Of a stretch of DNA of 64,000 nucleotides, positions 8,002 to 61,340 are shown in pieces. This DNA comes from Acetobacterium malicum subsp. dehalogenans DSM 11527 (GTDB lineage Bacteria; Bacillota; Clostridia; Eubacteriales; Eubacteriaceae): the NCBI RefSeq assembly GCF_000472665.1, contig NZ_AXAC01000015.1, forward strand, positions 1 to 64,000, in the 5' to 3' direction. The first letter of the stretch is position 1. Each line of letters begins with the position of its first letter. The notes under the pieces were generated by a model. It was given only the letters and a program-made list of their open reading frames with translations. It did no database searches and had not been told where the DNA came from. Both the position numbers and the translations under genes were made by a program.

Positions 8002-8742
8002 TCAGGCAATTAAAGTAAATATTTTATAAAAGGTAACAATCAATATCATCACAGCAAACATCTGTTTCATTCGACCACTGGGCATAAACAGGCTGGTAAT
8101 TCGCGCTCCGGCGAATGAGCCGATTGCGCCGGCGATCAGTAACGGTATCATCAATATTAAATCCCATTGAGCCGTTGCCAGATGGGGAATTAATGAAGAA
8201 AATGACGGCGCAATTACCGCAAAAGCGGTGATCCCGGCGGCTTTTTTGGGTTCAAATCCTACCAGTATTAAAGTCGGCATTAAAATAAATCCTGGTCCTA
8301 CTCCCATGAAACCTGCCAAAACAGAAATTGGAATTGCCAGAATTAAAGCCAGTTTAAAATTTTCTTGCTGTCCTTCGGTATGCTTAACAGGCTTAAATAA
8401 TCGGTAGGCCAGAAAAAAGACGGCGCCAAAATACAAAAACCAGACATAAATCTGAGGTACATAGTGGACAAGCCAGGCTCCAACCGGTGCTGCCAGAGTG
8501 GCAACAATAGTCAGATAAATCGCTTTTTTCCAATCCACATAACCACTTTTGGCAAAACCGAAAACCGCAAACAATGCTGTCACACCGTTTAGCAGCAAAC
8601 TCAACGGTTGAACCTGATTAACGAGATCAGGTAAAAACAACCCTAAAAATGGGATCGCCGCAAAAGCAACCCCTAAACCCAACATTCCTGAAATAATTGA
8701 AAGTAGAAATAAGCCAATTACCATTATTATTACTTCGTTCAT
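8002..8742 (-). CDS. TauE/SafE-family sulfite/anion exporter
   Basis: A membrane protein of about 246 residues with some seven to eight hydrophobic segments and the family pattern of two halves, each with a glycine-rich helix (SGMLGLGVAFAAIP near the start and AGFMGVGPGFILMP in the second half). The family exports sulfite, sulfoacetate or other small anions. I chose the start at 8742 because GGAGAGG sits 5 bases before it; an in-frame ATG 18 bases upstream has no binding site. It is divergent from nothing and follows the radical SAM and ArsR genes on the same strand. Its promoter is at 8783-8811. A role in moving sulfite or a thio-arsenic species is only inference. Confidence 0.8.
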   Translation of the reverse strand: MNEVIIMVIGLFLLSIISGMLGLGVAFAAIPFLGLFLPDLVNQVQPLSLLLNGVTALFAVFGFAKSGYVDWKKAIYLTIVATLAAPVGAWLVHYVPQIYVWFLYFGAVFFLAYRLFKPVKHTEGQQENFKLALILAIPISVLAGFMGVGPGFILMPTLILVGFEPKKAAGITAFAVIAPSFSSLIPHLATAQWDLILMIPLLIAGAIGSFAGARITSLFMPSGRMKQMFAVMILIVTFYKIFTLIA

Positions 8743-10559: not shown

Positions 10560-10925
10560 TTAATTGTTTACGGTTACTGTTGCCATTTGGGCTTTGAGAA
10601 CCAGCTTCAGTAGTTCTTCTTCCGACAGTCCTGCCCAGGTTGCCAGTTCCGTGTTGGATGGATAACCTTTTTTCTTTTTTACTTCTCCATCTACAAGGGT
10701 AACCGGAAGTACTTCAACCCCTTCATTAAGAATGAGATCATTCACTGTTTTGCTCGCCACAAAAGCCATTGGATCTTCAGATAAACCATATCTCAGAATT
10801 TTTCTGCCCTCGCCTTCCAGCACATTTAACATCGCTGAAACTCTCAGCAACTCCGGATCGACGCCTGGTCCACAGACACCTGTTGAACAGCACATAGCTG
10901 GATCATATATTTCTACTTTACTCAT
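10560..10925 (-). CDS. arsD: arsenic metallochaperone ArsD (copy 2)
   Basis: A 121-residue ArsD with the required N-terminal cysteines C12, C13 and C18, nearly identical to copy 1 over the first 20 residues. It lacks the C-terminal cysteine pairs and ends MATVTVNN. It therefore keeps the part needed for arsenite transfer to ArsA. It is encoded two genes downstream of arsA, after the HesB-like gene, probably on one transcript driven from 13.1 kb. Confidence 0.95.
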   Translation of the reverse strand: MSKVEIYDPAMCCSTGVCGPGVDPELLRVSAMLNVLEGEGRKILRYGLSEDPMAFVASKTVNDLILNEGVEVLPVTLVDGEVKKKKGYPSNTELATWAGLSEEELLKLVLKAQMATVTVNN

Positions 10926-11342: not shown

Positions 11343-13058
11343 TTATTTTTTCCAGGGAATAACCACATAGTTTCCTTTAGTATCTTCGGCGATTCGTTTA
11401 ATCCATTTTTCTTCATTATTCGCTCTTGCCCGTAAGAAGGCATCCTTAGTGTCAGTCGCCAAAAGGCTGGCGTTCATGACCCACCACTTATTCATAATAC
11501 CGGCACGTTTTAAGTCTGCTTCTAAGCGAAGGGCTTCAAAGACCGGGGTTGCTTCTGGCAATGCCACAATGACCACTTCAGTTTCGGCCTGATTTTGCAG
11601 ACGTGGTAATAGATTGACGACTGAATCGGGAATATCTGCATTGGAACGTTCCATTTCTTTATGGTAGCTTTCCGTGGAGTTAAGCAGAAGCAAGGTATGT
11701 CCGGTTGGTGCAGTATCTATTACGACTACCCCATCTTCAGCTTTTTCCACTTGTTCTGCAAAGGCTCTAAATACAGCAATTTCCTGAGTACAAGGGGATT
11801 CCAGATCTTCAACAATATAGTCAATGTCATCTTGACTCATGTTAGCAGCTTTTGCTTTTCCGATAACCTCATCCCGATATTTTTGTAGTTCTACTGCTTC
11901 ATCAATATTACTGACGGTGATATTTTCACCACCCATGGTTGCTGCACTCATATGGCCGGCTGGATCGGTGGTGGTCAGGTAAACCTTCTTTCCCATTTTC
12001 GAAAGGCCCAGCGCTATCGCGGCTGCAATAGTTGTTTTACCAACGCCGCCTTTACCCATGGTGAAGATTACTTTTTTATTTGAATCATACATGTCTTTAA
12101 CCAGTTTTTCCAAACCGGGTAAATCGCTGATTTCCTTGACTTTTTCCACTTCAATCACATCATCTTCGGTAAATAGACGGCGAATATTATCTACTCCGGC
12201 AACATTATAAGCTCGCAGTGGCAGGGTATAAATGTCCAGCGTCTTTAAGCTGTTAGGGATTTTACTGACAGCATCTTTTTGTTTGCTGTAGAATGCCGTT
12301 GCTATTTCATCGGTTTTGTCAAAGTTCTCAAGGGCACCATTGATAATCAGAATTTGATTTTCAACCCCGATTTCTTTTAATTCCTTCGACGCTCTGGCTG
12401 CTTCTGCCAGTGGCGATGGTTCTGGTCGCGAAACTAGAATCAATGTCGTCTTATCACCATCAGAAAGAGTTTGCACGGCTTTTTCATACATTTTCTTTTG
12501 TTCGGTTAAACCGGACAACTGTCCCAAACAAGAAGCACCATGGGTGCTGTCATCAATAAAGCTATCCCAAGCTGAAGGTAATTGCAGCATTCTGAGGGTA
12601 TGGCCAGTAGGAGCCGTGTCAAAGATGATATAATCAAACTCTTTGTTCATTTTTTCATCGGTGATGAAGCGGGAAAATTCATTGAACGCAGCAATCTCAA
12701 CCGTACAGGAACCCGCCAGCTGTTCTTCCATGCTGGCAATCGCAACATCTGGCAATTTTCCTCGATAAGGTCCGACTACAGATTCCTTATATTCTTCTGC
12801 TGCCTCGATAGGATCCAGATTTGCCACAATCAGGTTAGGAACAGCTTTGATCGGCACGCCTTGGCCAGTTAATTCTGTTTCAAATACATCCTGCAAATTT
12901 GAAGCCGGGTCGGTACTGACCAGAAATACTTTCTTTCCTTTATCGGCAAGACTCACTGCCGTTGCACAGGCAGTGGAGGTTTTACCGACACCACCTTTGC
13001 CGGTATAAAATAAATACTTGGTTAAATTAACATTATCGGGTGTAAAATTCTTGTACAT
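11343..13058 (-). CDS. arsA: arsenite-translocating ATPase ArsA (two-domain)
   Basis: The 571-residue fused form has two nucleotide-binding halves, with P-loops GKGGVGKTS (about 20-28) and GKGGVGKTT (about 335-343). Both halves carry a signal DTAPTGHTL. The three cysteines of the metalloid site are present: C118 (AGSCTVE), C177 (GASCLGQ) and C423 (SPCTQE), matching C113, C172 and C422 of the plasmid-borne enzyme. ArsA energises an arsenite efflux pump and receives As(III) from ArsD. No ArsB or Acr3 pump gene is in the window. It is first in the unit arsA-hesB-arsD2, from the operator-promoter at 13.1 kb. Confidence 0.96.
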   Translation of the reverse strand: MYKNFTPDNVNLTKYLFYTGKGGVGKTSTACATAVSLADKGKKVFLVSTDPASNLQDVFETELTGQGVPIKAVPNLIVANLDPIEAAEEYKESVVGPYRGKLPDVAIASMEEQLAGSCTVEIAAFNEFSRFITDEKMNKEFDYIIFDTAPTGHTLRMLQLPSAWDSFIDDSTHGASCLGQLSGLTEQKKMYEKAVQTLSDGDKTTLILVSRPEPSPLAEAARASKELKEIGVENQILIINGALENFDKTDEIATAFYSKQKDAVSKIPNSLKTLDIYTLPLRAYNVAGVDNIRRLFTEDDVIEVEKVKEISDLPGLEKLVKDMYDSNKKVIFTMGKGGVGKTTIAAAIALGLSKMGKKVYLTTTDPAGHMSAATMGGENITVSNIDEAVELQKYRDEVIGKAKAANMSQDDIDYIVEDLESPCTQEIAVFRAFAEQVEKAEDGVVVIDTAPTGHTLLLLNSTESYHKEMERSNADIPDSVVNLLPRLQNQAETEVVIVALPEATPVFEALRLEADLKRAGIMNKWWVMNASLLATDTKDAFLRARANNEEKWIKRIAEDTKGNYVVIPWKK

Positions 13059-13170: not shown

Positions 13171-14556
13171 TCACAAACGCATCTTTACTTTATTAATTGA
13201 TATCCCATGAATATCATGAAGGGCTTCCATGATCGCTTCGGACAGCGTTGGATGAGGGTGAATCACATCCCCAAGCACTTCTGCCGTTAATCCAAGGTGG
13301 ACTGCCATGGTTAACTCTGCCAAAAGGTCAGTTGCCTCAGGCCCAATAATCGAAGCTCCGATGATCACATCTTGTTCATCGACAATGATTTTAACCTGTC
13401 CCTGTATTTTCCCGATGATCTGGGCTTTTCCAAGGGATCTGAAATCAAAACTGCCGGTTTTATAAGGAATCCCCCTTTGCAGTGCCTCTTTTTCGGTTAA
13501 CCCCACCGCTGCAATCTGGGGATCCGTATACACGCATCGGGGGATCGCTTTATGAACAGCCGTTTTATTTTTTCCCAGCATGTTTTCTACTGCTATAATA
13601 CCTTCCTTCGAGGCGACATGGGCCAAATAAGGAGTATTAATAAGATCCCCAACGGCATAAATCCCTTTAACACTGGTTTCCAGTGACTCATCGACTTCGA
13701 TCTGACCCTTAGAATCCACTTTAATTCCTAATGCTTCCAGGTTAAGTCCTTTTGAAAAGCTGGCTCGCCCGATTGAAAGCAACAGCATTTCCGCTTCTAA
13801 AGTTTTGCCACTTGACAGTGTTACTGAAATCCCGGAGTCCTGAACCTTCACATCCGTAACGCTACTGGCAGTCAATACCTTTATTTTCTCTCGCTTAAAC
13901 TGGCGAAGCAATTGTTTCGTTACGCTTTCGTCCTCATAACTCAAAATCTGATCAGCCATTTCCACAATCGTTATTTGAGTCCCCATCCGACTAAAAAATT
14001 GTCCCAGTTCACACCCGATCACGCCGCCGCCAATAACAATCATCGATTTTGGTGGCGTTTTTAACGCTAACGCCTCAGTACTGGTAATTACTTTCTCACC
14101 ATCATAATGAAACATTTCTGGACAGACGGGAATTGAACCAGTTGCTAATAAAATTTCATCACTTACCAGTGTTTCAACCCCGCCATCATTACGCTTCACT
14201 TCTACCGTTTTTGAGTCGATCAGTTTGCCCACTCCGCGAACCAGCTTAACACCGTTTGATTCGAAAAGAAATTCGATCCCCTTGACTAAACCGAATACCA
14301 GCTTATCTTTTCGTTCAATAATTTGTTTTAGTTCAACGGTCGTATGATCATTAAAAACCCCAAACTTTTCGGCTTCCAATGAGGTCGTTAAAACATCAGA
14401 TGATGCCAGCAATGCCTTAGTAGGAATACAACCTATATTGAGACAGGTACCGCCAACCTCTTTTTTTTCAACAACTGTCACATCTGCACCTAATTTAGCT
14501 GCCATAATGGCGGCTTCATAACCTCCTGGGCCAGCACCAATAATCGTAATTTTCAT
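13171..14556 (-). CDS. lpdA: dihydrolipoyl dehydrogenase
   Basis: A 461-residue flavoprotein disulfide reductase. FAD-binding GAGPGGYEAA lies at the N-terminus and the redox disulfide is GGTCLNIGCIPTK (C38, C43). A second dinucleotide fold GGGVIGCELGQFF (about 178-190) binds NAD. The C-terminal active-site motif is HPHPT. It oxidises dihydrolipoyl groups with NAD. No 2-oxo-acid dehydrogenase or glycine-cleavage operon is present, but a lipoyl (GcvH-like) domain is encoded at 18.3 kb, a likely partner. It is the last gene of the unit that starts with the PuuD-like amidotransferase. Confidence 0.92.
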   Translation of the reverse strand: MKITIIGAGPGGYEAAIMAAKLGADVTVVEKKEVGGTCLNIGCIPTKALLASSDVLTTSLEAEKFGVFNDHTTVELKQIIERKDKLVFGLVKGIEFLFESNGVKLVRGVGKLIDSKTVEVKRNDGGVETLVSDEILLATGSIPVCPEMFHYDGEKVITSTEALALKTPPKSMIVIGGGVIGCELGQFFSRMGTQITIVEMADQILSYEDESVTKQLLRQFKREKIKVLTASSVTDVKVQDSGISVTLSSGKTLEAEMLLLSIGRASFSKGLNLEALGIKVDSKGQIEVDESLETSVKGIYAVGDLINTPYLAHVASKEGIIAVENMLGKNKTAVHKAIPRCVYTDPQIAAVGLTEKEALQRGIPYKTGSFDFRSLGKAQIIGKIQGQVKIIVDEQDVIIGASIIGPEATDLLAELTMAVHLGLTAEVLGDVIHPHPTLSEAIMEALHDIHGISINKVKMRL

Positions 14557-15734: not shown

Positions 15735-16886
15735 ATGGATATTTATTTAGATAATGCCGCAACCACCTTTCCCAAACCGCTGGCAGTACCGGAAGCGATT
15801 TTTGATTATATTGTCAACAATGGCGGAACTTCTGGTCGTGGCTCCTATGAAAAAGCCATTTTGGCTGATGGTTTAGTTTATCAGACCAGGAAAAGTCTCG
15901 CAAAACTCTTTAACCATAATGATCCCAAAACAGTGGTGTTCACTTCATCAGTTACTGAATCTATAAATCTGGCGCTTCAGGGGATCTTAAAGCCTGGCGA
16001 TCACGTGGTGACCAGTGCTCTTGAACATAACGCCGTCTGGCGATGCTTAAAAACCCTGGAGCGGGATCAGGGAATTACTATTTCAGTGGTACCAGCTACC
16101 GAGCAAGGCGAAACAGATGTCCGAGATGTGGAAGCGGTTATCACTCCGTATACAAAAATCATTGTTTTTACTCATGCCTCCAACGTACTGGGAACTCTCC
16201 AACCGATTGGCGAGATCGGCGCCTTAGCCCGCGAAAAGAACATTCTTTTTCTGGTTGATGCCGCTCAGACTGCCGGGGTTATTCCCATTGATGTCCAGGC
16301 ACAGAACATTGATCTGTTGGCTTTTACCGGACATAAAAGCCTGTTAGGTCCGATGGGTACCGGCGGCCTGATCGTGAATTGCGATACTGAAATCCATCCC
16401 CTTATCTCCGGTGGCACCGGCGGTGACTCAGCCTATGAATACCAACCAGACTATTATCCTAACCATCTGGAAGCCGGTACCATGAATGTCAGCGGTATTA
16501 TTGGTCTGGGTGCGGCTCTTCAGTTTCTCGAAGCCGAAGGCCTGAAAACAATCCGCGATAAAGAGGATACCCTGATGGATTACGCGCTAAACGCATTAAG
16601 CACTGTTCCAGGGGTTGAAATTTACGGCCCTCGGGATTCTTCCAAAAGCGTTGGCGTGATTCCATTTAACCTCGAAGGTCACGTCCCGGAAGAAATCGCC
16701 TTTTATCTGGATCAGGAGTGCCACGTCATGATCCGTTCCGGTTTACATTGTGCCCCCAGTGCCCATCGGCTGATTGGTACGGTTACCCGGGGAACCTGTC
16801 GCATTGGCATCGGCTATTTTAATGAAAAGGCTCATATTGATGCCCTTGTTAATGGACTAAAATCTTATCTAAAGGAGAATAACTAA
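15735..16886 (+). CDS. class V aminotransferase, cysteine desulfurase family
   Basis: This 383-residue PLP enzyme begins MDIYLDNAATTFPKP. The PLP-binding lysine is in FTGHKSLLGP (about residue 201). The persulfide cysteine is in RSGLHCAPSAHR (about 339). It belongs to the cysteine-desulfurase-like subgroup common in Clostridia, which takes sulfur from cysteine as a protein persulfide or acts on a related substrate. AGAAGGAG precedes the ATG. The downstream Fe-S protein gene overlaps its stop codon (TAATG), so the two are made together. It is divergent from the arsenic-type PuuD-lpdA unit. Confidence 0.88.
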   Translation: MDIYLDNAATTFPKPLAVPEAIFDYIVNNGGTSGRGSYEKAILADGLVYQTRKSLAKLFNHNDPKTVVFTSSVTESINLALQGILKPGDHVVTSALEHNAVWRCLKTLERDQGITISVVPATEQGETDVRDVEAVITPYTKIIVFTHASNVLGTLQPIGEIGALAREKNILFLVDAAQTAGVIPIDVQAQNIDLLAFTGHKSLLGPMGTGGLIVNCDTEIHPLISGGTGGDSAYEYQPDYYPNHLEAGTMNVSGIIGLGAALQFLEAEGLKTIRDKEDTLMDYALNALSTVPGVEIYGPRDSSKSVGVIPFNLEGHVPEEIAFYLDQECHVMIRSGLHCAPSAHRLIGTVTRGTCRIGIGYFNEKAHIDALVNGLKSYLKENN

Positions 16887-17425
16887 TGTACCTCTCAACA
16901 ATCAGTCTTATTTACATCAAACCCTGTACCACCGGTGGTGGTCGGATTAAATTTAAGGCAAAACTCAGTAATCCGGTTCCTGAGGTGATGCCCTATCTCA
17001 ATACCGTGATTAAAACCGGTCTTTATATTCCATCAGCACATACTTTCACCTATAAGGTCGGTAGTCATATCATTAATATTCATGAACGAAATCTGACCTG
17101 CACACAGTTAACCAATGAAGCGGAGTGTTATGAAATGATTGATCATATCTATGATCTGATCAATGAGACCTGGGATAACAAAGATTCCATTGTGCCCAAC
17201 GAAGAAACCCGGGAACGCCCCAGCGCGATACAGCTTTATAAATTGTTGCCTAAGAAAATTGGCTGCAAGGTCTGTGGTCAGGGTTCCTGCATGGGCTTTG
17301 CTTCCAAATTGATATTAGGAACCAGTCGCCTGAGCCAGTGTACCCTGATGAAAGAGAAAGAATATGCTCCCAATTATCTGAGCCTGGAAGCACATTTACA
17401 GCTACTTGGTTATGAAACCGACTGA
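16886..17425 (+). CDS. Fe-S protein with a corrinoid-protein-type [4Fe-4S] motif
   Basis: The 179-residue product has, in its second half, C127, C130, C135 and C152 in GCKVCGQGSC...QCTLM. This is the four-cysteine motif found at the N-terminus of the large corrinoid Fe-S protein and in related reductive activators. The first 110 residues look like a small alpha/beta domain I do not recognise (IYIKPCTTGGGRIKFKAKL). It is translationally coupled to the cysteine desulfurase gene (start overlaps its stop). The pairing suggests sulfur or electron transfer to the cluster. The terminator at 17458-17495 ends the unit. Confidence 0.8.
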   Translation: MYLSTISLIYIKPCTTGGGRIKFKAKLSNPVPEVMPYLNTVIKTGLYIPSAHTFTYKVGSHIINIHERNLTCTQLTNEAECYEMIDHIYDLINETWDNKDSIVPNEETRERPSAIQLYKLLPKKIGCKVCGQGSCMGFASKLILGTSRLSQCTLMKEKEYAPNYLSLEAHLQLLGYETD

Positions 17426-17457
17426 TTATCTGATCTTAAAAAAATCCTCTGCAACGC

Positions 17458-17495
17458 AAAAGCCAGATCTTCGCTATCGTTGATCTGGCTTTTTT
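17458..17495. terminator. bidirectional intrinsic terminator between convergent genes
   Basis: Stem AAAAGCCAGATC / GATCTGGCTTTT with a 12-base loop, followed by six T on the plus strand and a TTTT run on the minus strand. It separates the rightward desulfurase unit from the leftward DGC operon. Confidence 0.85.
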
Positions 17496-17507: not shown

Positions 17508-17918
17508 CTAAATTGACTTTATTAGAATGTCATCAAAGATTTCACAGGTTTTAGCTGCCGTTTTGTTGACATACTCCATATGTTCATCGGTGACATTACG
17601 TGTTGACAAGGGTTTTTCAAGAGCCTTAACTTCACCAATGATTTCTGCTACATCCACACTACCAGCTACTTTATTGCTGTATTTTTCAATGGCCCGTTTA
17701 GCACAGCATTTTGAGCACCCATCTACCGCAATAGTCGGATATTTTTCGGCAAATTCCCGTTCGCCGCCGTCACCGGCAATAAATAAGGGCAGACATAAGG
17801 TGGATACCATCCCGGGTTTCAGTTCTTCCATCATTTTACGCACCGCCAACCGGGAAATTGTCCCACCCAGACATTCTTCACCACTACATGAAATAACACC
17901 AATTTTATTTGTTATCAT
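17508..17918 (-). CDS. DGC-domain protein (third DGC gene of the operon)
   Basis: The 136-residue product carries the DGC signature: an early cysteine pair (ISCSGEECLGG), a central LCLPLF, then VDGCSKCCAKRAIE. The DGC family (Pfam 'DGC domain') is small, cysteine-rich and of unknown function, often called 'putative zinc-binding'. It is the last gene of the operon that begins at 19840. Its start is 2 bases from the stop of the preceding DGC gene. The tail ends in a helical stretch (THE/HMEYVNKTAAKTCEIF). Binding of a metal or thiol ligand by the cysteines is likely but not shown. Confidence 0.8.
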   Translation of the reverse strand: MITNKIGVISCSGEECLGGTISRLAVRKMMEELKPGMVSTLCLPLFIAGDGGEREFAEKYPTIAVDGCSKCCAKRAIEKYSNKVAGSVDVAEIIGEVKALEKPLSTRNVTDEHMEYVNKTAAKTCEIFDDILIKSI

Positions 17919-17919
17919 A

Positions 17920-18321
17920 TCAATTCACCCCTGCCTTTATTTCTTTGACGTCTTCGGCCAAAATTTCGGCCAGTTCTTCCGCATATTTCCAGCCATCGTC
18001 AGTGAGAGCGGTTCCGGTTCCGTGTTCTTCACCACGATGGGCTTTCATGAAATCTGGGACCTTGTGACTTTTTACGACGATCCCACCGGTTTCTTCGACA
18101 CTCTTCCGGGCACAGTATTTGGCACAGCCATCCATAGTAATACAGGTTTCACCTTTTATTTTTGCCACCACTTCGTCATCGCCAGTAACCACATGGGCCA
18201 GGCAGAGTGTTTCAGTATCACTGGGACATTTCTCCTCAGTTACCATTAAGACGGACTCCCGGGCCAATAGCCCAAATACTTTTCCAATCCCACTACAGGG
18301 AATTACTTTTATTTTAGACAT
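17920..18321 (-). CDS. DGC-domain protein (second DGC gene of the operon)
   Basis: This 133-residue protein has the same plan as its neighbours: IPCSGIGKVFG at the start, ETLCLAHVV, then MDGCAKYCARKSVEE. Its start codon lies inside the 3' end of the DGC-GcvH gene (8-base overlap), so the two are translated together. The repeated appearance of DGC units of similar size within one operon suggests a multi-subunit complex or a set of carriers rather than a lone enzyme. Function is unknown. Confidence 0.8.
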   Translation of the reverse strand: MSKIKVIPCSGIGKVFGLLARESVLMVTEEKCPSDTETLCLAHVVTGDDEVVAKIKGETCITMDGCAKYCARKSVEETGGIVVKSHKVPDFMKAHRGEEHGTGTALTDDGWKYAEELAEILAEDVKEIKAGVN

Positions 18322-19162
18322 CGATTTCTGCTACCTTTCGTTGTAAAAATTCAAAATAAGCCGGGCAATCATGGAGCAGATCCTGATCTTCTTCAAAATC
18401 ACTTAGGTGCACTTCCACCAGCCAGCCCTTTTCATAGGGGCTTTCGTTGACCTGTTCCGGGGCATCATTTAAACTGACATTAACAGCAACCACGGTACCA
18501 GAGACCGGAGAAATAATTTCAAAAACTGCTTTGCTGGATTCGATGCTGCCTAAATCGTCAAACTGTTCGAATTTATCGCCGATTTCCGGCGGATCCACAT
18601 AGAGAATATCAGACAGATTCTGTTGCACATAATCGCTGACCCCTACCCGAGCCATATTCCCAGATATCGTCACCCAACAGTCATTTTCATTGAAAAAGTA
18701 ATTGCTTTGTGGCACCTTGAAAATAAATTTGCCATGAGAAAAGGTATTATATTCAATTGAATCCGGTTCAATAAATTCAGATTCGGTCTGTTCTGCGGCG
18801 GAACTGTTGATTTTTTCCAGTACTTCCCGAACGACAGCCTGGGTGTCCTGATCATCCCGAATTTCGACCCCCAACTTGATATCCAGAGCCTTGGCAACAT
18901 CGCTGACATTGACTTTTTCTTTGATGGCAAGATCCAAATCCCCGGCCAATTTACTGGCACAGCGGGTATTGCAACCATCAATTACGGTTAAATCGCCGGC
19001 CGCCAGAGCTTTTTCGTAGCGGGTTTTGTTCTGATTTAATAAAACCGGACAGATAAGCTCAACTTCTTCCGACTGCGTCAGCTCCAGGGCCACCCGTCGC
19101 GACAGGTCACCGGCGCATTTATCCAAACCATTACAAGGTAATACACAAATAGACTCATTCAT
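18314..19162 (-). CDS. fusion of a DGC domain and a GcvH-type lipoyl domain
   Basis: 282 residues in two parts. Residues 1-80 form a DGC domain (C6, C10, C16, LICPVLL, IDGCNTRCASK). After a linker (100-140), residues 155-270 match glycine-cleavage H protein: CWVTISGNMARVGVSDYVQ, then LGSIESSKAVFEIISPVSG with the expected lipoylated lysine at K211. H proteins carry a lipoyl arm that swings between enzymes. No glycine cleavage genes are near. The DGC fusion and the ferredoxin/HdrA-like neighbours suggest a lipoyl arm used in thiol redox or sulfur transfer. The gene overlaps both neighbours by 8 bases. Confidence 0.88.
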   Translation of the reverse strand: MNESICVLPCNGLDKCAGDLSRRVALELTQSEEVELICPVLLNQNKTRYEKALAAGDLTVIDGCNTRCASKLAGDLDLAIKEKVNVSDVAKALDIKLGVEIRDDQDTQAVVREVLEKINSSAAEQTESEFIEPDSIEYNTFSHGKFIFKVPQSNYFFNENDCWVTISGNMARVGVSDYVQQNLSDILYVDPPEIGDKFEQFDDLGSIESSKAVFEIISPVSGTVVAVNVSLNDAPEQVNESPYEKGWLVEVHLSDFEEDQDLLHDCPAYFEFLQRKVAEIDV

Positions 19163-19457
19163 CAGTTGCGGCCTCTTTTTCTGCCTTACGGATGGCTTTA
19201 ATCATCTTGGTGGTTTCTGGTTTATCGGGAAAGGTAATCGCATCTGGTCCACATGTTTTACTACAGGCGCGGCAAAAAACAACGCAGTTATTGGGGTTTT
19301 TAACTTTTAGTTTTGGTTTGGCATTTTCATCCACTTCAAATACCTGATGGGGGCAAAATTCCACACAGTCCATACAATCGTTACATTTTGTAAAATCAAT
19401 TCGGGGCGACCAATCAATCCGATCCCGTTCGACACCCATAAAAGTTGATTCGCTCAT
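19155..19457 (-). CDS. 2[4Fe-4S] ferredoxin
   Basis: A 100-residue protein with two cluster motifs: CNDCMDCVEFC (C25, C28, C31, C35) and C58, C62, C65, C69 (NCVVFCRACSKTC). A short N-terminal extension of about 20 residues precedes them. It should carry low-potential electrons. Its start is 2 bases after the stop of the HdrA-like gene and its end overlaps the DGC-GcvH gene, so all are translated as a block. It is a natural electron partner for the HdrA-like protein. Confidence 0.88.
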   Translation of the reverse strand: MSESTFMGVERDRIDWSPRIDFTKCNDCMDCVEFCPHQVFEVDENAKPKLKVKNPNNCVVFCRACSKTCGPDAITFPDKPETTKMIKAIRKAEKEAATDE

Positions 19458-19459
19458 GA

Positions 19460-19840
19460 CTATACCTCGTATCCCATTTCTTCCAGTTTCTTTTCTACCA
19501 CTTCAAAGGCTTTTTCGTTGGTCATATCACGGATGTCCAGCATCACAGCATCTTCTTCAATATTAAGTCCCGCTTCTTTAAAGGCATCCTTAAACATCTT
19601 ACGCTGCATATTAGGCGCACAGGCACCAATGATCACTTTTCGATGGGACTTTAAAAAATCGGCTAAAAAACGATCCCCATCTTCCTCACATAGCTGCGGA
19701 TGAATAAAGGCGTATTCAACCGGTAACTCAACCCGAACCTGATTGATAAAATCCCAAATATCCATGGCCTGAAATCCAGGACATTTTCCGGTACAGACAC
19801 ACATAATAAAACCTGGTAATTCTTGACTCATATCTTCCAC
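19460..19840 (-). CDS. stand-alone HdrA N-terminal domain-like protein
   Basis: A 126-residue protein with cysteines C14, C16, C20 (MCVCTGKCPG), C51 (HPQLCEEDGD) and C74 (IIGACAPNMQRKMF). This order matches the N-terminal domain of heterodisulfide reductase subunit A, where similar cysteines hold an Fe-S cluster, but the FAD and ferredoxin parts of HdrA are missing. It is the first gene of the DGC operon, with a textbook promoter at 19879-19907. Hdr-like proteins together with a lipoyl protein recall the sHdr sulfur-oxidation system, which is an analogy only. Confidence 0.75.
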   Translation of the reverse strand: MEDMSQELPGFIMCVCTGKCPGFQAMDIWDFINQVRVELPVEYAFIHPQLCEEDGDRFLADFLKSHRKVIIGACAPNMQRKMFKDAFKEAGLNIEEDAVMLDIRDMTNEKAFEVVEKKLEEMGYEV

Positions 19841-19878
19841 CTCTTATGTAATATAATTATTTCCTTATGGATATAATC

Positions 19879-19907
19879 ATTATACGCCTCTCATTTATGG
19901 GTGTCAA
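19879..19907 (-). promoter_or_regulatory. consensus promoter of the DGC operon
   Basis: On the minus strand: TTGACA (19902-19907), 17 bases, TATAAT (19879-19884), an exact sigma-A consensus. The ArsR-type palindrome (19932-19951) lies about 25 bases upstream of the -35 element. Confidence 0.85.
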
Positions 19908-19931
19908 GCGCAAAAGATAAAGATTGCTTTT

Positions 19932-19951
19932 TTATAAGCAATTGCTTATAA
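19932..19951 (+). promoter_or_regulatory. operator palindrome overlapping the arsR (copy 2) promoter
   Basis: TTATAAGCAATTGCTTATAA is a perfect 20-base palindrome. Its right half contains the first five bases of TATAAT (19947-19952), which pairs at 17 bases with TTGCTT (19924-19929). That fits autoregulation of the arsR gene at 20014. It also sits between the two divergent units. Confidence 0.75.
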
Positions 19952-20013
19952 TGTTATTGAATAAACCGATTCTGATCGTCTTAAATACACTATCAAAAGA
20001 AAAGAGGTCGTTC

Positions 20014-20310
20014 ATGAATTCTGAAGATGTATCTGTTAAAATATTCAAAGCGCTGGGCCATCCCATTCGTTTACAAATAGTAAAATCACTACTGATCGAG
20101 TCACTTTGTGTGTGCGATCTTAACCTTTCTTTTGATTTCAGCCAGGCAAACTTATCCCAGCATTTAAAAATTCTCCGCGAAGCGGGAATATTGGAAAGTA
20201 AAAAAATCGGTGTTGAAATGCATTATCGTGTGAAGCTAAAAGGTATCTCAAGACTGCTAAATACCATGGATCAAACCGTGGCAGAATATTTCGAAACACT
20301 GGATTTTTAA
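20014..20310 (+). CDS. arsR: ArsR-family metalloregulator (copy 2)
   Basis: A 98-residue winged-helix repressor, starting at the ATG with AAAGAGG 5 bases upstream; an upstream in-frame ATG would run through the operator and is rejected. It has IFKALGHPIRLQIVKSLL, the metalloid-binding pair in SLCVCDLN, and the recognition helix FSQANLSQHLKILRE. It is divergent from the HdrA-like/DGC operon and probably controls both that operon and itself through the palindrome at 19932-19951. It is followed after 27 bases by another DGC-like gene. Confidence 0.9.
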   Translation: MNSEDVSVKIFKALGHPIRLQIVKSLLIESLCVCDLNLSFDFSQANLSQHLKILREAGILESKKIGVEMHYRVKLKGISRLLNTMDQTVAEYFETLDF

Positions 20311-20337
20311 TAAACCAAATGAAAGAAGGTAACCATT

Positions 20338-20700
20338 ATGAAACTTAAAATTTATCCCTGTCCCGGGCATTGCAATGTCAGTATGATGACCAAAACTGTT
20401 GCCCAGTATTTTGGAATCATTAATGAGGAGAATATCACCATCCTTCCCCATGTCAACATGAACATTCTCCAGGAAGTTGAAGCGGCCGGTGATAGTGAAA
20501 AATATATTTCGCTGAATGGCTGCCCCTCGACCTGTGCCTCCATGGCTTATGAAGACATGGGCTACGAACTTTACGATGAAATTGTGATGACCCCAGATTA
20601 TGATATTAAGCACAATGAAAAATATACCAATCTGGAAGATATTGATGAAGAAATCGAACATGTCCAGAAAGCCCTTGATAAAATATTAGCCCGTAACTGA
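20338..20700 (+). CDS. DGC-like small protein
   Basis: The 120-residue product has IYPCPGHCNVSMMTKTVAQYF near the start and LNGCPSTCASMAYEDMG in the middle, the latter a variant of the DGC motif with N in place of D. A charged helical tail follows. It is a relative of the three DGC proteins on the other strand and shares a transcript with arsR, placing it in the same system. A ribosome binding site AAGAAGG precedes the ATG. Function is unknown; metal or thiol binding by the four paired cysteines is inferred. Confidence 0.75.
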   Translation: MKLKIYPCPGHCNVSMMTKTVAQYFGIINEENITILPHVNMNILQEVEAAGDSEKYISLNGCPSTCASMAYEDMGYELYDEIVMTPDYDIKHNEKYTNLEDIDEEIEHVQKALDKILARN

Positions 20701-20917: not shown

Positions 20918-21349
20918 ATGATTAAAGTTCTTTTTGTTTGTGTTCATAATTCCGCCCGAAGCCAGATGGCTGAAGCTTTTTTAAATGATTTGGGGAAAGA
21001 CTACTTCATCGCCGAAAGTGCCGGCCTGGAACCGGGCACCATCAATCCCCTGATTGTCAAGGTGATGGCTGAAGTCGGCTATGATCTTAGTCAAAACAAG
21101 ACCAATTCGGTGTTTGACTATTTTAAAGAGGGGCGCCTGTATTCCATTATCGTTAAGGTTTGTGATCTGGAAAATGGTCAGCGCTGTCCAGTTTTTCCGC
21201 TGGCTATGAATGTACTTGACTGGACCTTTGAAGATCCGGCTGATTTTACCGGTACCGAAGCAGAAATGCTTGAACAGGCCCGTCATCTACGCTATAAAAT
21301 CCGTGAAAACGTCATTGATCTGATTAACACCTACAAAGATTCTTTATAG
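20918..21349 (+). CDS. arsC: arsenate reductase, low-molecular-weight phosphatase type (copy 1)
   Basis: A 143-residue protein with the P-loop CVHNSARSQ (nucleophile C8) and the redox pair C82 and C90 (KVCDLENGQRCPVFP), the plan of thioredoxin-linked ArsC. It reduces arsenate to arsenite, feeding ArsA, ArsM and efflux. In classic ArsC the two later cysteines are 7 apart (C82, C89); here they are 8 apart, a small deviation. CGAGGAG precedes the ATG. The second copy follows 37 bases downstream. Confidence 0.9.
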   Translation: MIKVLFVCVHNSARSQMAEAFLNDLGKDYFIAESAGLEPGTINPLIVKVMAEVGYDLSQNKTNSVFDYFKEGRLYSIIVKVCDLENGQRCPVFPLAMNVLDWTFEDPADFTGTEAEMLEQARHLRYKIRENVIDLINTYKDSL

Positions 21350-21386
21350 ATTATAAAAAACTTGATTACTAAAACAGGAGAAAATA

Positions 21387-21803
21387 ATGAATAAACCCAA
21401 AGTTGCCTTTATCTGTGTCCACAATTCCTGCCGTAGCCAGATGGCTGAAGCCCTTGGCAAAAAATTTGCCAGTGATGTCTTTGAAAGTTATTCCGCCGGA
21501 ACCGAGACCAAACCACAAATCAATCAGGACGCTGTCCGTTTGATCAAAGAACGGTACGACATCGATATGGAAGCTACTCAGCACTCAAAGCTACTAACGG
21601 ATCTTCCACCCATTGACATTGTCATCAAAATGGGCTGCAACGTGGTCTGCCCCTACTTGCCCAGCCAATATGTTGAAGACTGGGGACTGGAAGATCCCAG
21701 CGGCAAAAGTGATGAAGAATTTATGGCCATCATCGATCAAATCGAAGCCAAGGTAAAAATTCTGGCCGATACCATCAAAAATAACGACCTTGATCTTCAC
21801 TGA
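21387..21803 (+). CDS. arsC: arsenate reductase, low-molecular-weight phosphatase type (copy 2)
   Basis: A 138-residue paralogue with CVHNSCRSQM (nucleophile C10, extra C15) and GCNVVCPYLP (C84, C88). The second redox pair is only 4 apart, a different geometry from copy 1, so the two may use different reducing partners. AGGAG precedes the ATG. It closes the arsC pair and ends at a strong terminator. The family call is firm; whether it prefers arsenate is inferred from context. Confidence 0.88.
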   Translation: MNKPKVAFICVHNSCRSQMAEALGKKFASDVFESYSAGTETKPQINQDAVRLIKERYDIDMEATQHSKLLTDLPPIDIVIKMGCNVVCPYLPSQYVEDWGLEDPSGKSDEEFMAIIDQIEAKVKILADTIKNNDLDLH

Positions 21804-57798: not shown

Positions 57799-58320
57799 TT
57801 AGCTGTAGGTGGCATAATACTCAGCTTCGGCCTGCTGGGCTTTCTGGTTGCCGACGCCGCAGCGGGGGTTAAGCAATGAACAGTTTTTACCGCAACCGCC
57901 GCAACGCAATTGGGACATAAATTCGCTGAGGCTGGGGACATCGGGTTCGGGTTCGGTGACTACCGGTTCCGTGACGGCCGGGGTTGCTTCGACTAGCGCC
58001 GGGGTTTCGACTGGTGCCGCCGCCACAACAACCGGAGTTTCCGGTTCCACAGCGATTGCCACCGTCGTTGTTTCAGGCACAGTCGCAGTGACCGTTTCGG
58101 TGGTTACTGCGGCCACACTGGCGGTATTGGCCGCGACTGTTGTGACGGTACTTTCGGTTTCACCATCCGCCACAGTATTCTTGACCACAATTGCCGGGGG
58201 AATTTCCACCTGGGCGGCCAATACCTGTTCATAGCTGCGGTAGGTCGTGGCCACCACCCCATAGACAATCAGCAAAGCCGCAATGGCCGCACCGAATTGC
58301 TTAATAATCTTGATTTTCAT
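57799..58320 (-). CDS. membrane-anchored Cys-rich protein with Val/Thr/Pro-rich stalk
   Basis: 173 residues that I do not recognise as a known family. A single membrane segment near 8-26 (FGAAIAALLIVYGVVATTY) is followed by about 105 residues rich in Val, Thr, Ala, Pro and Glu, probably an extended stalk outside the cell. The C-terminal end is a cysteine site: RCGGCGKNC and NPRCGVG (C-x2-C-x3-C-x6-C). The site could hold zinc, an Fe-S cluster or exchange disulfides. It is encoded last in the operon, 27 bases after the CcdA-like gene, a natural source of electrons for external cysteines. Confidence 0.7.
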   Translation of the reverse strand: MKIKIIKQFGAAIAALLIVYGVVATTYRSYEQVLAAQVEIPPAIVVKNTVADGETESTVTTVAANTASVAAVTTETVTATVPETTTVAIAVEPETPVVVAAAPVETPALVEATPAVTEPVVTEPEPDVPSLSEFMSQLRCGGCGKNCSLLNPRCGVGNQKAQQAEAEYYATYS

Positions 58321-58347
58321 TTAAACACCTCGTTTTTAAATACCTTC

Positions 58348-59043
58348 TCATATCAGATTGAACATTGCCCCGACGGAAAACAGGGTTAATAATACGTAAC
58401 TACCGAGCCGAAACCACTGCAGCTGCTGGGGGATTTCTTTGACAATCGCTGCTGAAAGGACCCCCGACAGCAGCACCATCAGCAGCACCGGGGTCAGGGT
58501 GCTGGCGGCGGCAAACACGCCGCCAACCAGAGCCGCAGTGGCAACCGGCAAAGTAACCGCCACCCCCATCATCAGCAGTAACGGGGCACAGGGGGAGGCT
58601 CCGTAGGCAAATCCAGCTGTAAACAGCGGAATCAAACCTTTTTTTTCCTCCTTTCGTTCTTTTTTTCCCCCCGCACAACCGGAACAGTTGCCGACAGACT
58701 GGGGCTTTTTAAAATCCATCAGCCATTTGACAATCAGCACTAACCCCAGGGCGACCATCGCCAGCTCCATAATCAGACTCAGGTTGACCCCGAACACATA
58801 ACCAGCGGCGTCAATAAACTGACTACCAACCAACGCCGCCAGGGTACACAACAGCACCACTGCTGCGATTTTGCCAATAAAAAAGCTGAGAAATGCAAGC
58901 AGTGATTTTTTCATCCCGCCGGCGTGGGTAATGATGTAGCTGGACAAAAAGACTGTAACCACCGGACTGCAGCAGGTGCCGCAGCCCAGCCCTACCGACA
59001 GCGCTGTGGCCAGCACTGGAATCAGTAATGCAACTGTCATCAT
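58348..59043 (-). CDS. CcdA-like membrane protein (thiol/sulfur transporter)
   Basis: A 231-residue protein with about six membrane helices. Each half carries a Cys-Pro near the helix start: GCGTCCSPVVTVFLSS near residue 20 and YGASPCAPLLLM near 150. A cytoplasmic loop contains CSGCAGGKKERKEEKK, another cysteine pair. This is the CcdA/DsbD-like plan, in which electrons or thiols cross the membrane. Its start overlaps the stop of the activase gene (TGATG). It is next to a Cys-rich stalk protein, a possible acceptor. Confidence 0.8.
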   Translation of the reverse strand: MMTVALLIPVLATALSVGLGCGTCCSPVVTVFLSSYIITHAGGMKKSLLAFLSFFIGKIAAVVLLCTLAALVGSQFIDAAGYVFGVNLSLIMELAMVALGLVLIVKWLMDFKKPQSVGNCSGCAGGKKERKEEKKGLIPLFTAGFAYGASPCAPLLLMMGVAVTLPVATAALVGGVFAAASTLTPVLLMVLLSGVLSAAIVKEIPQQLQWFRLGSYVLLTLFSVGAMFNLI

Positions 59044-59831
59044 CAGGCCCTCTCGCTGGCAATCAGCGCCGCCCCGATGGCCCCATTAAACTGCGGATAT
59101 CTGGCCACATAGACATCACGCATCATCTCTTCTTCAAAAGCTTTGTGGACCCCGATGTTCAGGGCACCGCCGCCAGTCATCAGGATGTCGCCGCCTTTTT
59201 CGGCTTTTTTCATCATTTTAATGATCCGTTTGGCCATCGATAAATGCATCCCCGCCAGTATATCCCGACGGTCATATTTCCGGGCCACCAGCGAGACCAC
59301 TTCCGACTGGGCAAAGACCACACAGGTACTGTTGATGTCACAGGGCGCTTTGCTTTCCAACGACAGCGGGCCGACCTGATCAATAGTGGTTTCCAGGATC
59401 TGGGCAATGACCTCCATGAATTTACCGGTGCCGGCAGCACATTTATCGTTCATGGTAAAGTTTTTGACAGCATAATTTTTGTCAAGATAAATGATCTTAC
59501 TGTCCTGGCCGCCAATATCAATGATCATCCCTGGCCGGTAATCCCGGGGCGCAGTTAAACGCACCCCATAAGCATGGGCAGTGATTTCCGAAATATCGTC
59601 ATCAGCGATGTCAAAGACCTTGCGGCTGTAACCGGTGGCCATGGTATAGCGTACTTCAGCACGGCTGATCCCCCGGCGGCTACACATTTTTTCAATCAAG
59701 GCACTGGCTGAGGCATTGTTATCAATCCCGGTATTGGTGACCATCGCATCGACCACCTGGTTCTGACAGATCAATGCCGCCTTGGTATAAGTTGATCCAC
59801 CGTCTAATCCGGCGTAATAATTTCTGTTCAT
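59043..59831 (-). CDS. 2-hydroxyacyl-CoA dehydratase activase-type ATPase (DCCP reductase-like)
   Basis: A 262-residue member of the BadF/BadG/HgdC ASKHA ATPase family. It begins NRNYYAGLDGGSTYTKAAL (phosphate loop), then IIDIGGQDSKIIYLD, and NDKCAAGTGKFMEV, whose Cys together with another (SKAPCDINSTC) binds a [4Fe-4S] cluster at the dimer interface. ATP drives electron transfer to an HgdB-type partner. The start at 59831 has AGGAG 6 bases before it; a longer frame with a TTG start is rejected. The partner is the next upstream gene. Confidence 0.9.
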   Translation of the reverse strand: MNRNYYAGLDGGSTYTKAALICQNQVVDAMVTNTGIDNNASASALIEKMCSRRGISRAEVRYTMATGYSRKVFDIADDDISEITAHAYGVRLTAPRDYRPGMIIDIGGQDSKIIYLDKNYAVKNFTMNDKCAAGTGKFMEVIAQILETTIDQVGPLSLESKAPCDINSTCVVFAQSEVVSLVARKYDRRDILAGMHLSMAKRIIKMMKKAEKGGDILMTGGGALNIGVHKAFEEEMMRDVYVARYPQFNGAIGAALIASERA

Positions 59832-59960
59832 GTTATTCTCCTGTTTTCTCGTCTCGTTCAAAACCTAACCCCGTACCGACCACTTATTACATGATGTTGT
59901 CCGCATTGCAGCAAACAAAAGCTTAACAATTGGTCGGGACAGCCGTTCAGCGTTATCCTG

Positions 59961-61340
59961 TCAATCGGCTATTTCCGCTTTTTTCGGCCGCGCGGCCAGA
60001 TCTTTCAGTTTGATCAGCTCAATAAAGGCCTCGATCCGGATCCGCAATTGTTCAATATCTTCCTCATTATAATCACTTTCGACTCGGACCACCGGAATTC
60101 CCAGTTTACCTAGCTCGTCTTCGAGGGTCTGGTACTCAAAATCGTAAACCAAACAGCCCCGCAAAACGTGGTACACCACGCCCTGAACCTGGTGGTCGGC
60201 TATCATCTGTTTGATCCGGTAAATCCGCTGGTCATTGTCGACAAAGGTCGGACAAGTGCAAGGCCGGGTGTAGCGGTTGGCCAGGGAGCGCATTAAACCG
60301 TCAAAGCTTTGATCCACCACGACGGTGGGATCATAAATCGAACGCTCGCCCATACAGGTTTCGTCCCCCACCAGAATGCCCCCGGTTTCTTCAATGAGCA
60401 GCGGAATTTTGATGTTCGGGAATATAATCGGTGACCCGGTAACCATAATCCGGGGCTGCTTGTCTTTACTGACAAATTGCCTGTCTTTTTTGCGCCGGGC
60501 CAATTCCCGGTTAAGCAGGTGCAGCTGCTGACTCCACTGTGCCACCGGCATGTACGAAAAAGCATTCATTAAAGCCATCGCATGGGTCCCTTTTATTAAG
60601 GCCGGAACGTGCTTTTTGTAATCATTGAATTTCGACATTTCGTACTGGGCAAAACCCATCTGATCAATGCTTTTGGCCAGACCCTGATAGGTAATGGTCT
60701 GGCCGGTGACCGCTTCCAGCTCCGGAATCAGCTGGTAGAGTTCCTGAACATACTGCTCCATATCGGTGTCATCACTTTTAGACGTCGGCACGTGCAGCGA
60801 ATAAGTTGGGACCATTTCTTTTAACATCCCGGCCATTTTCTTTTTGCAGTCACAGGTGATCGGCACCACCATCAGGGCGCAGTCTTCGTAAATCGGCATT
60901 ACTTCCATGGCCTGGAAACCCATCACCGCTTTGATCAGCGGACAGGCATCCCGAGGCACCAGATCGTCGCCAATCGCAAAGGCGGTATAACTGCCGCTGC
61001 ATAATTTTACTGGCTGGGCTCCGACGGCGTAAATCAGTTCATGAGGCACCATCACACAATAGGTGCCGACAATTTTTGTTTCGGCCGCTTTTTCGACATT
61101 TTTCATCTCAACATAGATGTCTCTGAGAACCTTGAAAAATGGCTGCATGGCTGCTGGCGCGCCGGGTAATTCTTCCAGTCGCCGCAGATATTTACCCGAC
61201 ACCTTGGTGGCTTTATCAATAAAGCGCTGGCGTTGCCGTTGTTCCATGGCCGTCAGCTCTTTTGTTTTGTTTTCAGCGACGCCGTTAGGATCGGCTTGAT
61301 TGTCTTCCTGACTATTTCTCTTATTCTTGATCAGACTCAT
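59961..61340 (-). CDS. HgdB-type 2-hydroxyacyl-CoA dehydratase family, double-cubane-cluster-like protein
   Basis: A 459-residue protein. Cysteines C95 (GTYCVMVPHELI), C133 (DACPLIKA), C163/C165 (ITCDCKKK), C361/C363 (RPCTCPTF) and C396 (VLRGCLVYDFE) fit the ligands of the DCCP/YjiM group or the HgdB fold. DCCP proteins hold an [8Fe-9S] cluster and, with an activase, reduce small low-potential substrates. The true substrate is unknown. The first 60 residues are charged and poorly conserved. Its start overlaps the polyferredoxin gene by 20 bases. Confidence 0.85.
   Translation of the reverse strand: MSLIKNKRNSQEDNQADPNGVAENKTKELTAMEQRQRQRFIDKATKVSGKYLRRLEELPGAPAAMQPFFKVLRDIYVEMKNVEKAAETKIVGTYCVMVPHELIYAVGAQPVKLCSGSYTAFAIGDDLVPRDACPLIKAVMGFQAMEVMPIYEDCALMVVPITCDCKKKMAGMLKEMVPTYSLHVPTSKSDDTDMEQYVQELYQLIPELEAVTGQTITYQGLAKSIDQMGFAQYEMSKFNDYKKHVPALIKGTHAMALMNAFSYMPVAQWSQQLHLLNRELARRKKDRQFVSKDKQPRIMVTGSPIIFPNIKIPLLIEETGGILVGDETCMGERSIYDPTVVVDQSFDGLMRSLANRYTRPCTCPTFVDNDQRIYRIKQMIADHQVQGVVYHVLRGCLVYDFEYQTLEDELGKLGIPVVRVESDYNEEDIEQLRIRIEAFIELIKLKDLAARPKKAEIAD

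Follow-up and report, generated by a model that had tools for sequence, protein, structure and literature searches.

The 64,000-nucleotide stretch analysed here (the window; Acetobacterium malicum subsp. dehalogenans DSM 11527, contig NZ_AXAC01000015.1) contains a compact five-gene operon at 19831-17508 (-), in which a lipoyl-type protein is encoded together with a ferredoxin and proteins of the DGC family. In the order of transcription, the genes encode HdrN, a stand-alone protein resembling the N-terminus of HdrA (19460-19831 (-), 123 amino acids); a 2[4Fe-4S] ferredoxin, Fdx (19155-19457 (-)); DGC-GcvH, a fusion of a DGC domain (residues 6-94) with a glycine cleavage H-protein domain (residues 156-273) (18314-19162 (-), 282 amino acids); and two further DGC proteins, DGC2 (17920-18321 (-), 133 amino acids) and DGC1 (17508-17918 (-), 136 amino acids). 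The fusion carries a lipoyl-type lysine, K211, in the context IESSKAVFEII (codon at 18530-18532 (-)). DGC2 overlaps the fusion gene, and the fusion gene overlaps Fdx, by 8 bases each, and Fdx and HdrN are 2 bases apart; a first-pass annotation, made from the sequence alone, had described this packing correctly except for the gap between DGC1 and DGC2, which is 1 base and not 2. A longer HdrN open reading frame (ORF) of 126 amino acids is possible from GTG 19840. The start is probably ATG 19831, because this methionine is nearly invariant in homologues and AGAGGTGG lies just upstream.

A divergent arsR (20014-20310 (+), probably starting at ATG 20014) and, 3' of it, a fourth DGC gene, DGC4 (20338-20700 (+)), face the operon across a perfect 20-base palindrome, TTATAAGCAATTGCTTATAA (19932-19951), which is presumably the ArsR operator. 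This arrangement, already pointed out at first pass, held on rechecking: Pfam HTH_5 matched within the 19924-20310 ORF, DGC4 scored 68.9 bits, and the palindrome was unique in the 64 kb when up to 3 mismatches were allowed (shuffled mean 0.02), so that the window holds no second operator copy. The encoded ArsR/SmtB repressor contains a CVC motif (SLCVCDL), a motif that in ArsR binds As(III). Among the loci collected from other genomes (L-numbers, see below), the palindrome half-sites reappear in the equivalent intergenic region of some other Acetobacterium loci (L006/L035, L011/L044 and L012), and similar palindromes occur in L039 and L041. A promoter-like TTGACA-17-TATAAT (12/12 consensus, 19879-19907 (-)) may serve the five-gene operon, and a terminator-like hairpin with a T run lies 3' of it (17446-17462 (-)); neither the promoter scan (9 found, shuffle mean 9.8) nor the terminator scan was above chance overall.

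Matches to Pfam, NCBIfam and PDB bore out the identities first proposed for the five genes. Pfam DGC (PF08859, cut-off 27 bits) gave 67.3 bits for DGC1, 50.1 for DGC2 and 64.6 for the fusion, and these three, with DGC4, account for all four DGC domains found in the genome. The H domain of the fusion scored 110.5 bits with Pfam GCV_H and 118.7 with NF002270 (cut-off 117), and 114.8 with TIGR00527, just below its cut-off of 115.85; superposition on bovine H-protein (3klr) gave a root-mean-square deviation (rmsd) of 1.0 A and a TMt of 0.95. Fdx contains Fer4 domains (Pfam) with the patterns CxxCxxCxxxC and CxxxCxxCxxxC. For HdrN, none of the 27 members scanned matched a Pfam family significantly. 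Its similarity to the HdrA N-terminus was detected with NF041778 (E 3e-6, far under the model's whole-protein cut-off) and with residues 9-95 of HdrA in PDB 7bkb_A (E 3e-5), and the FAD and ferredoxin domains of a complete HdrA are absent from the 126-residue ORF.

The residues expected to matter were highly conserved across the collected loci. K211 was present in 62/62 fusions, with an ESxK context in the commonest forms. Four cysteines were invariant in each DGC family: C10, C38, C64 and C68 of the fusion (62/62 rows), C9, C40, C66 and C70 of DGC2 (63/63) and C11, C42, C68 and C72 of DGC1 (63/63). All eight ferredoxin cysteines were kept in 63/63 rows, and HdrN cysteines 14, 16, 20, 51 and 74 (numbered on the longer ORF) in 60 of 62 aligned rows. 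In the AlphaFold2 model of DGC1 (pLDDT 93.5) the four cysteines follow strands 6-10, 38-41 and 62-66, an arrangement that, as we read the model, would fit a metal or cluster site. The best VIA row for DGC was the Wolinella protein 3pu6, itself uncharacterised (Z 8.5, rmsd 3.2, 117 residues), a match too weak to name the fold or a ligand, and a DGC1 profile found nothing significant among PDB sequences.

We collected 64 loci by scanning genome contigs with the fusion as query and located their genes with hidden Markov models (HMMs) on six-frame translations. The order HdrN > Fdx > DGC-GcvH > DGC2 > DGC1 was found in 59 of the 64; at the other five (L084, L090, L092, L093 and L098) a contig edge interrupts the operon. 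The proposal made at first pass had hinged on DGC-GcvH being conserved beside HdrA-N and ferredoxin genes elsewhere, and it is so at every locus with flank available. L007, L018, L019 and L022 seemed to have lost HdrN or Fdx, but this was an artefact of greedy ORF picking, and the six-frame HMM search found the genes. HdrN homologues are stand-alone and of similar length, with 64-98% identity to the window protein in 26 sampled rows, Lokiarchaeota included; the closest fusion homologue (94% identity) is from an Acetobacterium sp. (L035). Within the taxonomic order of the window, 18 of 67 genomes carry a full-length fusion, at 20 places counting the window, and all five genes are present at each of the 20, including the second copies in two genomes (G041 and G042; L208 and L210). 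In other genera of the family, all 7 stretches (18-20 kb) contain the five genes and a divergent ArsR upstream. In a 398-genome sample of the phylum, HdrN (>200 bits) and the full-length fusion (>390 bits) occur in the identical nine genomes, a count that leaves out 26 weak HdrN matches (26-36 bits, mostly longer HdrA-like frames).

The hosts belong to Bacillota, Bacteroidota, Actinomycetota and Lokiarchaeota and include a Desulfovibrio metagenome-assembled genome (MAG). Named hosts include Acetobacterium, Clostridium ljungdahlii, Clostridium ragsdalei, Caloramator, Sedimentibacter, Fusibacter sp. 3D3, Acididesulfobacillus and Lucifera, besides MAGs of Bacteroidales, Actinomycetota and Lokiarchaeota. 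When a tree was built from the fusions, Promethearchaeota and Actinomycetota each fell on one side of a branch, and Bacillota and Bacteroidota require two changes each; L079, labelled Alphaproteobacteria, is placed inside Bacteroidota and may be misbinned. No plasmid-borne copy was seen: none of 142 records covered 80% of the fusion query, the 20 plasmid rows shown for it being matches to the GcvH part, and HdrN had no match. Some loci carry additional genes. The Lokiarchaeota locus L087 has a DGC gene (8065-8541) beside the divergent arsR and a DUF166 gene 3' of DGC1 (11770-12495); a DUF166-type cluster is found in 7 loci. In L181 (16620-19077), a second DGC2-DGC1 pair with LplA follows a complete module.

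The canonical sequence and fold of the H domain could mean that DGC-GcvH is an ordinary glycine-cleavage H-protein, fused and misplaced by chance. We find this hardly credible, as its gene partners are constant and the P-protein is elsewhere or not found over cut-off. The only P-protein (glycine decarboxylase) in the assembly is on another contig (C76, not the window's C5), together with another, canonical gcvH; gcvT was not searched for. P-protein was over cut-off in 12 of 19 chosen module genomes. The 7 with no such match include the isolates from which L050, L053 and L059 come; in the latter two, matches stayed below threshold. The first-pass statement that no glycine-cleavage genes are present holds for the P-protein, and genome comparison shows that the module is independent of glycine cleavage. 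On contig C29 of the window's own genome (L161, 4489-9306), a further gcvH stands beside a 389-residue CCG-domain protein, an FAD-linked oxidase and dihydrolipoyl dehydrogenase (LPD), another grouping of lipoyl and Fe-S genes with little resemblance to glycine cleavage.

A resemblance to the sHdr sulfur-oxidation pathway had also been noted at first pass, with the reservation that the protein set differs, and both parts of this stand: K211 is kept, and CCG subunits were not found nearby. The module might then perform sHdr-like sulfur chemistry adapted to arsenic, with the arm carrying sulfane sulfur and making or breaking thioarsenicals while electrons pass to NAD+ via LPD. We give this a small chance only. 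The hosts are, we take it, mostly fermenting or acetogenic anaerobes and not sulfur oxidisers, no CCG (HdrB-type) gene was found near the module, and the unit has no full-length HdrA. The CCG/HdrB family (PF02754) has hits in the own genome at C29, C46 and C5:84773 and none in the window. When the window and all 64 module loci were searched with a CCG-motif pattern, no convincing protein came up, only two short frames in L043 and L070; in the positive control, L161, the pattern did detect the two motifs of the CCG protein known there. Consistent with sulfur chemistry, on the other hand, are a gene for a cysteine desulfurase/SclA-like protein in the window (at 15735), which has relatives near 11 module loci, and fusions of a pyridine nucleotide-disulfide reductase with a rhodanese near the modules of L046 (13566-15215) and L097 (14420-16087). 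These fusions resemble a protein discussed for Fusibacter in the part of PMC5525254 consulted. Together with the cysteine desulfurase/SclA-like gene, the window encodes a PF04060 Fe-S protein (both within 15735-17425 (+)), with relatives near 10 module loci. The combination of a GcvH-like lipoyl carrier, an Hdr-related protein and lipoate ligase further recalls the shdr-lbpA loci, as far as these are described in the sections of PMC6067878 consulted. Because the hdr set that, according to those sections, defines sHdr was not found, the module is not sHdr as defined.

What the module shares across its hosts beyond its own genes is an arsenic neighbourhood. Neighbours within ~10 kb were counted at 63 loci (L035-L097; L098, a 3.2 kb fragment, was left out), and as controls the same HMMs were run on 20 stretches around canonical gcvH genes of related genomes. 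The listed arsenic genes were Acr3, ArsA, ArsM, ArsC-like, ArsG, ArsF and ArsD; arsR was not counted, and neither were 'ArsP' matches of 177-179 amino acids at ~20 bits. At least one listed gene was present at 43/63 module loci and 0/20 controls (Fisher 1.7e-8, a value that ignores relatedness), in 6 of the 8 Acetobacterium loci and 37 of the 55 others; a narrower list (Acr3, ArsA, ArsM and ArsD) still gave 37/63. The most frequent neighbours were ArsR (52 of the 63), LPD (31), Trx3/ArsE-like (29), Acr3 (26), ArsG (16), ArsF, ArsP and LplA (14 each), followed by ArsA and ArsC-like (11 each), CcdA and ArsM (10 each) and ArsD (8). ArsR, Trx3 and LplA were each found at 0/20 controls and LPD at 10/20; LplA and the arsenic genes are thus what distinguishes the module neighbourhood. 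The nearest scanned family within 1 kb before HdrN was LPD in 24 loci, ArsG in 11 and a divergent ArsR in 8, and LplA was the nearest after DGC1 in 11. Representatives checked against NCBIfam were over cut-off for LplA (TIGR00545, 429 bits), Acr3 (TIGR00832, 401), ArsA (TIGR04291, 830), ArsM (NF008823, 334), ArsD (132), LPD (TIGR01350, 508) and ArsG (NF040495, 313; L063); ArsF (NF040494, L082) scored 89 bits, and the ArsC-like protein of L049, with 80 bits, was below cut-off. The LplA of the window's own genome, on contig C6, is of the TIGR00545 type, as is that of L056.

The window itself fits this pattern. Leftward of the operon lie LPD (13171-14556 (-), TIGR01350 506.5 bits), a possible functional partner; the ArsA ATPase (11343-13058 (-), TIGR04291 813 bits); two ArsD genes (at 10560 and 6875; NF033727, 126 and 130 bits); a further arsR at 9995; and ArsM at 5409 (NF008823, 338.8 bits). 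Two ArsC-like proteins of the LMWP fold (Pfam LMWPc) are encoded on the other side (20918-21803 (+)). LPD had been placed 3.6 kb from the operon; the gene is confirmed, and its distance from the near end is ~3.0 kb.

An ArsR is encoded in the stretch at 53 of 61 HdrN-bearing loci, and 37 of these 53 have a C[VAI]C motif; a looser CxC count of 40/53 took in two or three CxC outside the usual motif. In Bacteroidota loci most ArsRs are without CxC. This would suit a module that responds to thiophilic toxicants other than arsenic (antimonite, bismuth, mercury) or to any poisoning of lipoyl groups, and that repairs or shields lipoyl enzymes instead of handling arsenic as such. To our knowledge, ArsR-family repressors, DGC genes and Trx3 genes are not arsenic-specific either. 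We nevertheless think this explanation has only a slight chance, as the neighbours Acr3, ArsA, ArsM, ArsD, ArsG and ArsF are arsenic-named families. Moreover, the module need not protect glycine decarboxylase, because it occurs in genomes without a P-protein over cut-off.

The two halves of the module also occur apart. In 14 of the 398 phylum genomes, a ferredoxin is paired with a divergent HdrN' (111-123 bits; VCQGTCPSF type in the rows read), and these 3.3 kb loci contain no DGC or lipoyl-DGC gene. In 20 kb stretches around such pairs, ArsR was found in 11/11 and a listed arsenic gene in 9/11 (8/11 with the narrower list); the pairs (L109-L122 and L189-L199) stand beside ArsR and often beside Acr3 or ArsC-like genes. 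A NifX-like gene (PF02579) lies 5' of the pair in L112 and, by reading, in L120. The other half is seen in one genome (G163; L138 and L200), where the gene directly after Acr3 encodes a lipoyl H-like protein that has no DGC domain. DGC2, DGC1 and a gene of the OsmC type come next; LPD and ArsM are present in that stretch, and HdrN and Fdx are absent. In addition, a 550-residue fusion of ferredoxin, DUF2703 and ArsM is encoded beside the module in L058 (12769-14421). As the halves recur separately with arsenic genes, and in view of the L058 fusion, both appear to serve arsenic and not to be chance neighbours.

Some of these observations could be explained by a pure electron relay, in which the lipoyl arm replaces thioredoxin and arsenic is never on the arm. 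Electrons would pass from ferredoxin through Fdx/HdrN, or from NADH through LPD, to the lipoyl disulfide, then to DGC disulfides and finally to arsenate reductases or ArsM. The two ArsC-like genes adjoining the window operon, the ArsC-like genes at 11/63 loci, the Fdx-HdrN' pairs near Acr3 and ArsC-like genes without a lipoyl-DGC protein, and the L058 fusion all fit such a relay. However, ArsC-like genes at just 11/63 loci and ArsM at 10/63 would leave most relays without a listed acceptor, three DGC domains with four invariant cysteines each exceed what a relay needs, and thioredoxin-like genes are already at the loci (Trx3 29/63). We therefore regard a pure relay as unlikely, though it is a serious contender.

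Taken together, the comparison makes it likely that the five genes form an arsenic-linked lipoyl module distinct from both glycine cleavage and sHdr. That it is an arsenic-induced, lipoyl-dependent dithiol carrier or relay of anaerobes, the arsenic link and the role outside glycine cleavage coming from genome comparison, approaches but does not reach an even bet. A bolder reading, with a probability of a little under 0.4, is a dedicated lipoic-acid-dependent arsenic pathway of anaerobic bacteria and Lokiarchaeota, in which the lipoyl arm would carry or reduce arsenic, driven by low-potential ferredoxin through the Hdr-like Fe-S protein, with the DGC proteins as acceptors. The first-pass annotation had imagined an arm that might shuttle electrons, thiols or sulfur; as the arm's cargo or substrate, we think arsenic more probable than sulfur. 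Its broader interpretation, a candidate undescribed redox system, stands, because the conservation and glycine-cleavage results both bear it out, and the comparison adds to it the arsenic link, the lipoate-ligase neighbours and the modular sub-versions.

In the proposed carrier or relay mechanism, a CVC-type ArsR would derepress the operon on As(III), and lipoate ligase would put lipoate on K211 of DGC-GcvH. LPD (with NADH), the ferredoxin/HdrN pair or both would keep the arm as dihydrolipoyl, the pair being, in our view, an Fe-S enzyme that reduces disulfides with electrons from low-potential ferredoxin. As a vicinal dithiol, the arm would capture trivalent arsenic, or be oxidised while reducing an arsenical. 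It would exchange the arsenical with the four-cysteine sites in the DGC domain of the fusion, in DGC2 and in DGC1. The DGC proteins could then pass it to export (ArsA, ArsP or Acr3) or to methylation (ArsM). We infer lipoylation, arsenic binding, Fe-S occupancy of HdrN and DGC and the direction of electron flow: the LplA neighbours and the ESxK lysine point to a lipoylated arm and LPD to a means of cycling it, HdrN together with Fdx suggests that low-potential electrons meet disulfide or Fe-S chemistry, and the four-cysteine DGC sites suggest metal(loid) or cluster binding. Lipoic acid is the cofactor classically poisoned by arsenite. Since arsenite binds lipoic acid, as stated in the parts of PMC10138600 consulted, a protein dedicated to this role could plausibly accept As(III) on a dihydrolipoyl arm.

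Several observations weigh against this mechanism. Twenty of the 63 loci have no listed arsenic gene; 8 of these are stretches of <12 kb, 12 have longer flanks, and 12 of the 20 carry ArsR. Among module stretches of the phylum sample, some from genomes shared with the named loci, 5/8 have an arsenic gene. The HMMs were partly built from the counted loci, although identical HMMs were applied to the controls. LPD shows no excess (31/63 module loci versus 10/20 controls); an LPD adjoining a lipoyl gene is ordinary, as half of the controls have one, and we therefore rejected its linkage as support. Acr3 is absent from the window's own genome, and the window's ArsC-like pair, whose best NCBIfam models are arsenate reductases, stays below their cut-offs. 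In one genome of the phylum sample (G430; L206, 8936-11474), LPD and arsR accompany an HdrN that breaks off at residue 70, while Fdx, the fusion and DGC are absent; this is probably a decayed copy of the module. Foldseek gave no PDB match to the DGC fold at E <= 0.001, which leaves the fold with no confident solved relative, and profile-profile comparison gave no support to joining DGC and HdrA-N in one superfamily on account of their alike cysteine spacing.

We did not find the module described in the open full-text literature; a published account may exist in subscription papers or preprints. The main text of PMC5525254 (Fusibacter sp.) contains none of the words lipo-, glycine cleavage and heterodisulfide. 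If the proposed role of the module is right, it would give protein-bound lipoate a new function in addition to those in sHdr sulfur oxidation and in oxidative decarboxylation/glycine cleavage. It would also represent an unrecognised arsenic pathway in anaerobes of sediment and gut and in acetogens, including the cultured Clostridium ljungdahlii and Acetobacterium species. We know of no function assigned to the DGC domain family, for which this would be the first functional hint. The window also holds a second unusual redox cluster (57799-63974 (-)). Two of its proteins are nearest to double-cubane reductases (NF040772, below cut-off), another is an activase of the CoA_E type (over cut-off) and a fourth is a NapH-like Fe-S protein; by reading only, there are also a CcdA-like protein and a small cysteine-rich protein.

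Finally, the module can be set against known systems. DGC-GcvH shares the fold and the ESxK lipoylation motif of the glycine cleavage H-protein but differs in its DGC fusion and its other partners, with a P-protein not nearby or none over cut-off. The sHdr-LbpA loci of Hyphomicrobium and others have a GcvH-like lipoyl carrier outside glycine cleavage, linked to hdr genes and to lipoate ligase and maturation genes (PMC6067878 and PMC10332631, in the parts consulted); the module resembles them in this, but has an HdrA N-terminal-like protein only, with no full HdrA and no CCG subunit found nearby, a lipoyl domain fused to DGC, an LplA of the TIGR00545 type where checked, and an arsenic and not a sulfur context. 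HdrN differs from the HdrA N-terminus it resembles in being stand-alone, without FAD and other domains, and in its CVCTGKC with an extra cysteine, while DGC1, DGC2, DGC4 and the N-terminus of the fusion, all members of PF08859, differ from other members in the GcvH fusion and the fixed operon place. The ArsE/ArsF/ArsG aromatic-arsenical system is a neighbour of the module in Bacteroidota loci but consists of different proteins, and most Bacillota and archaeal loci are without ArsF/ArsG (ArsG 16/63). With ars operons (ArsR-ArsD-ArsA-Acr3/ArsB-ArsC-ArsM) the module has ArsR control and arsenic-island location in common, but no arsenic-named NCBIfam model matched any of its five conserved proteins. 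If every set under ArsR control is taken to be an ars operon, it would be a new variant of these; we count it as a new kind, because a tested defining feature of sHdr and one of glycine cleavage are missing from it and its proteins match no arsenic-named model.

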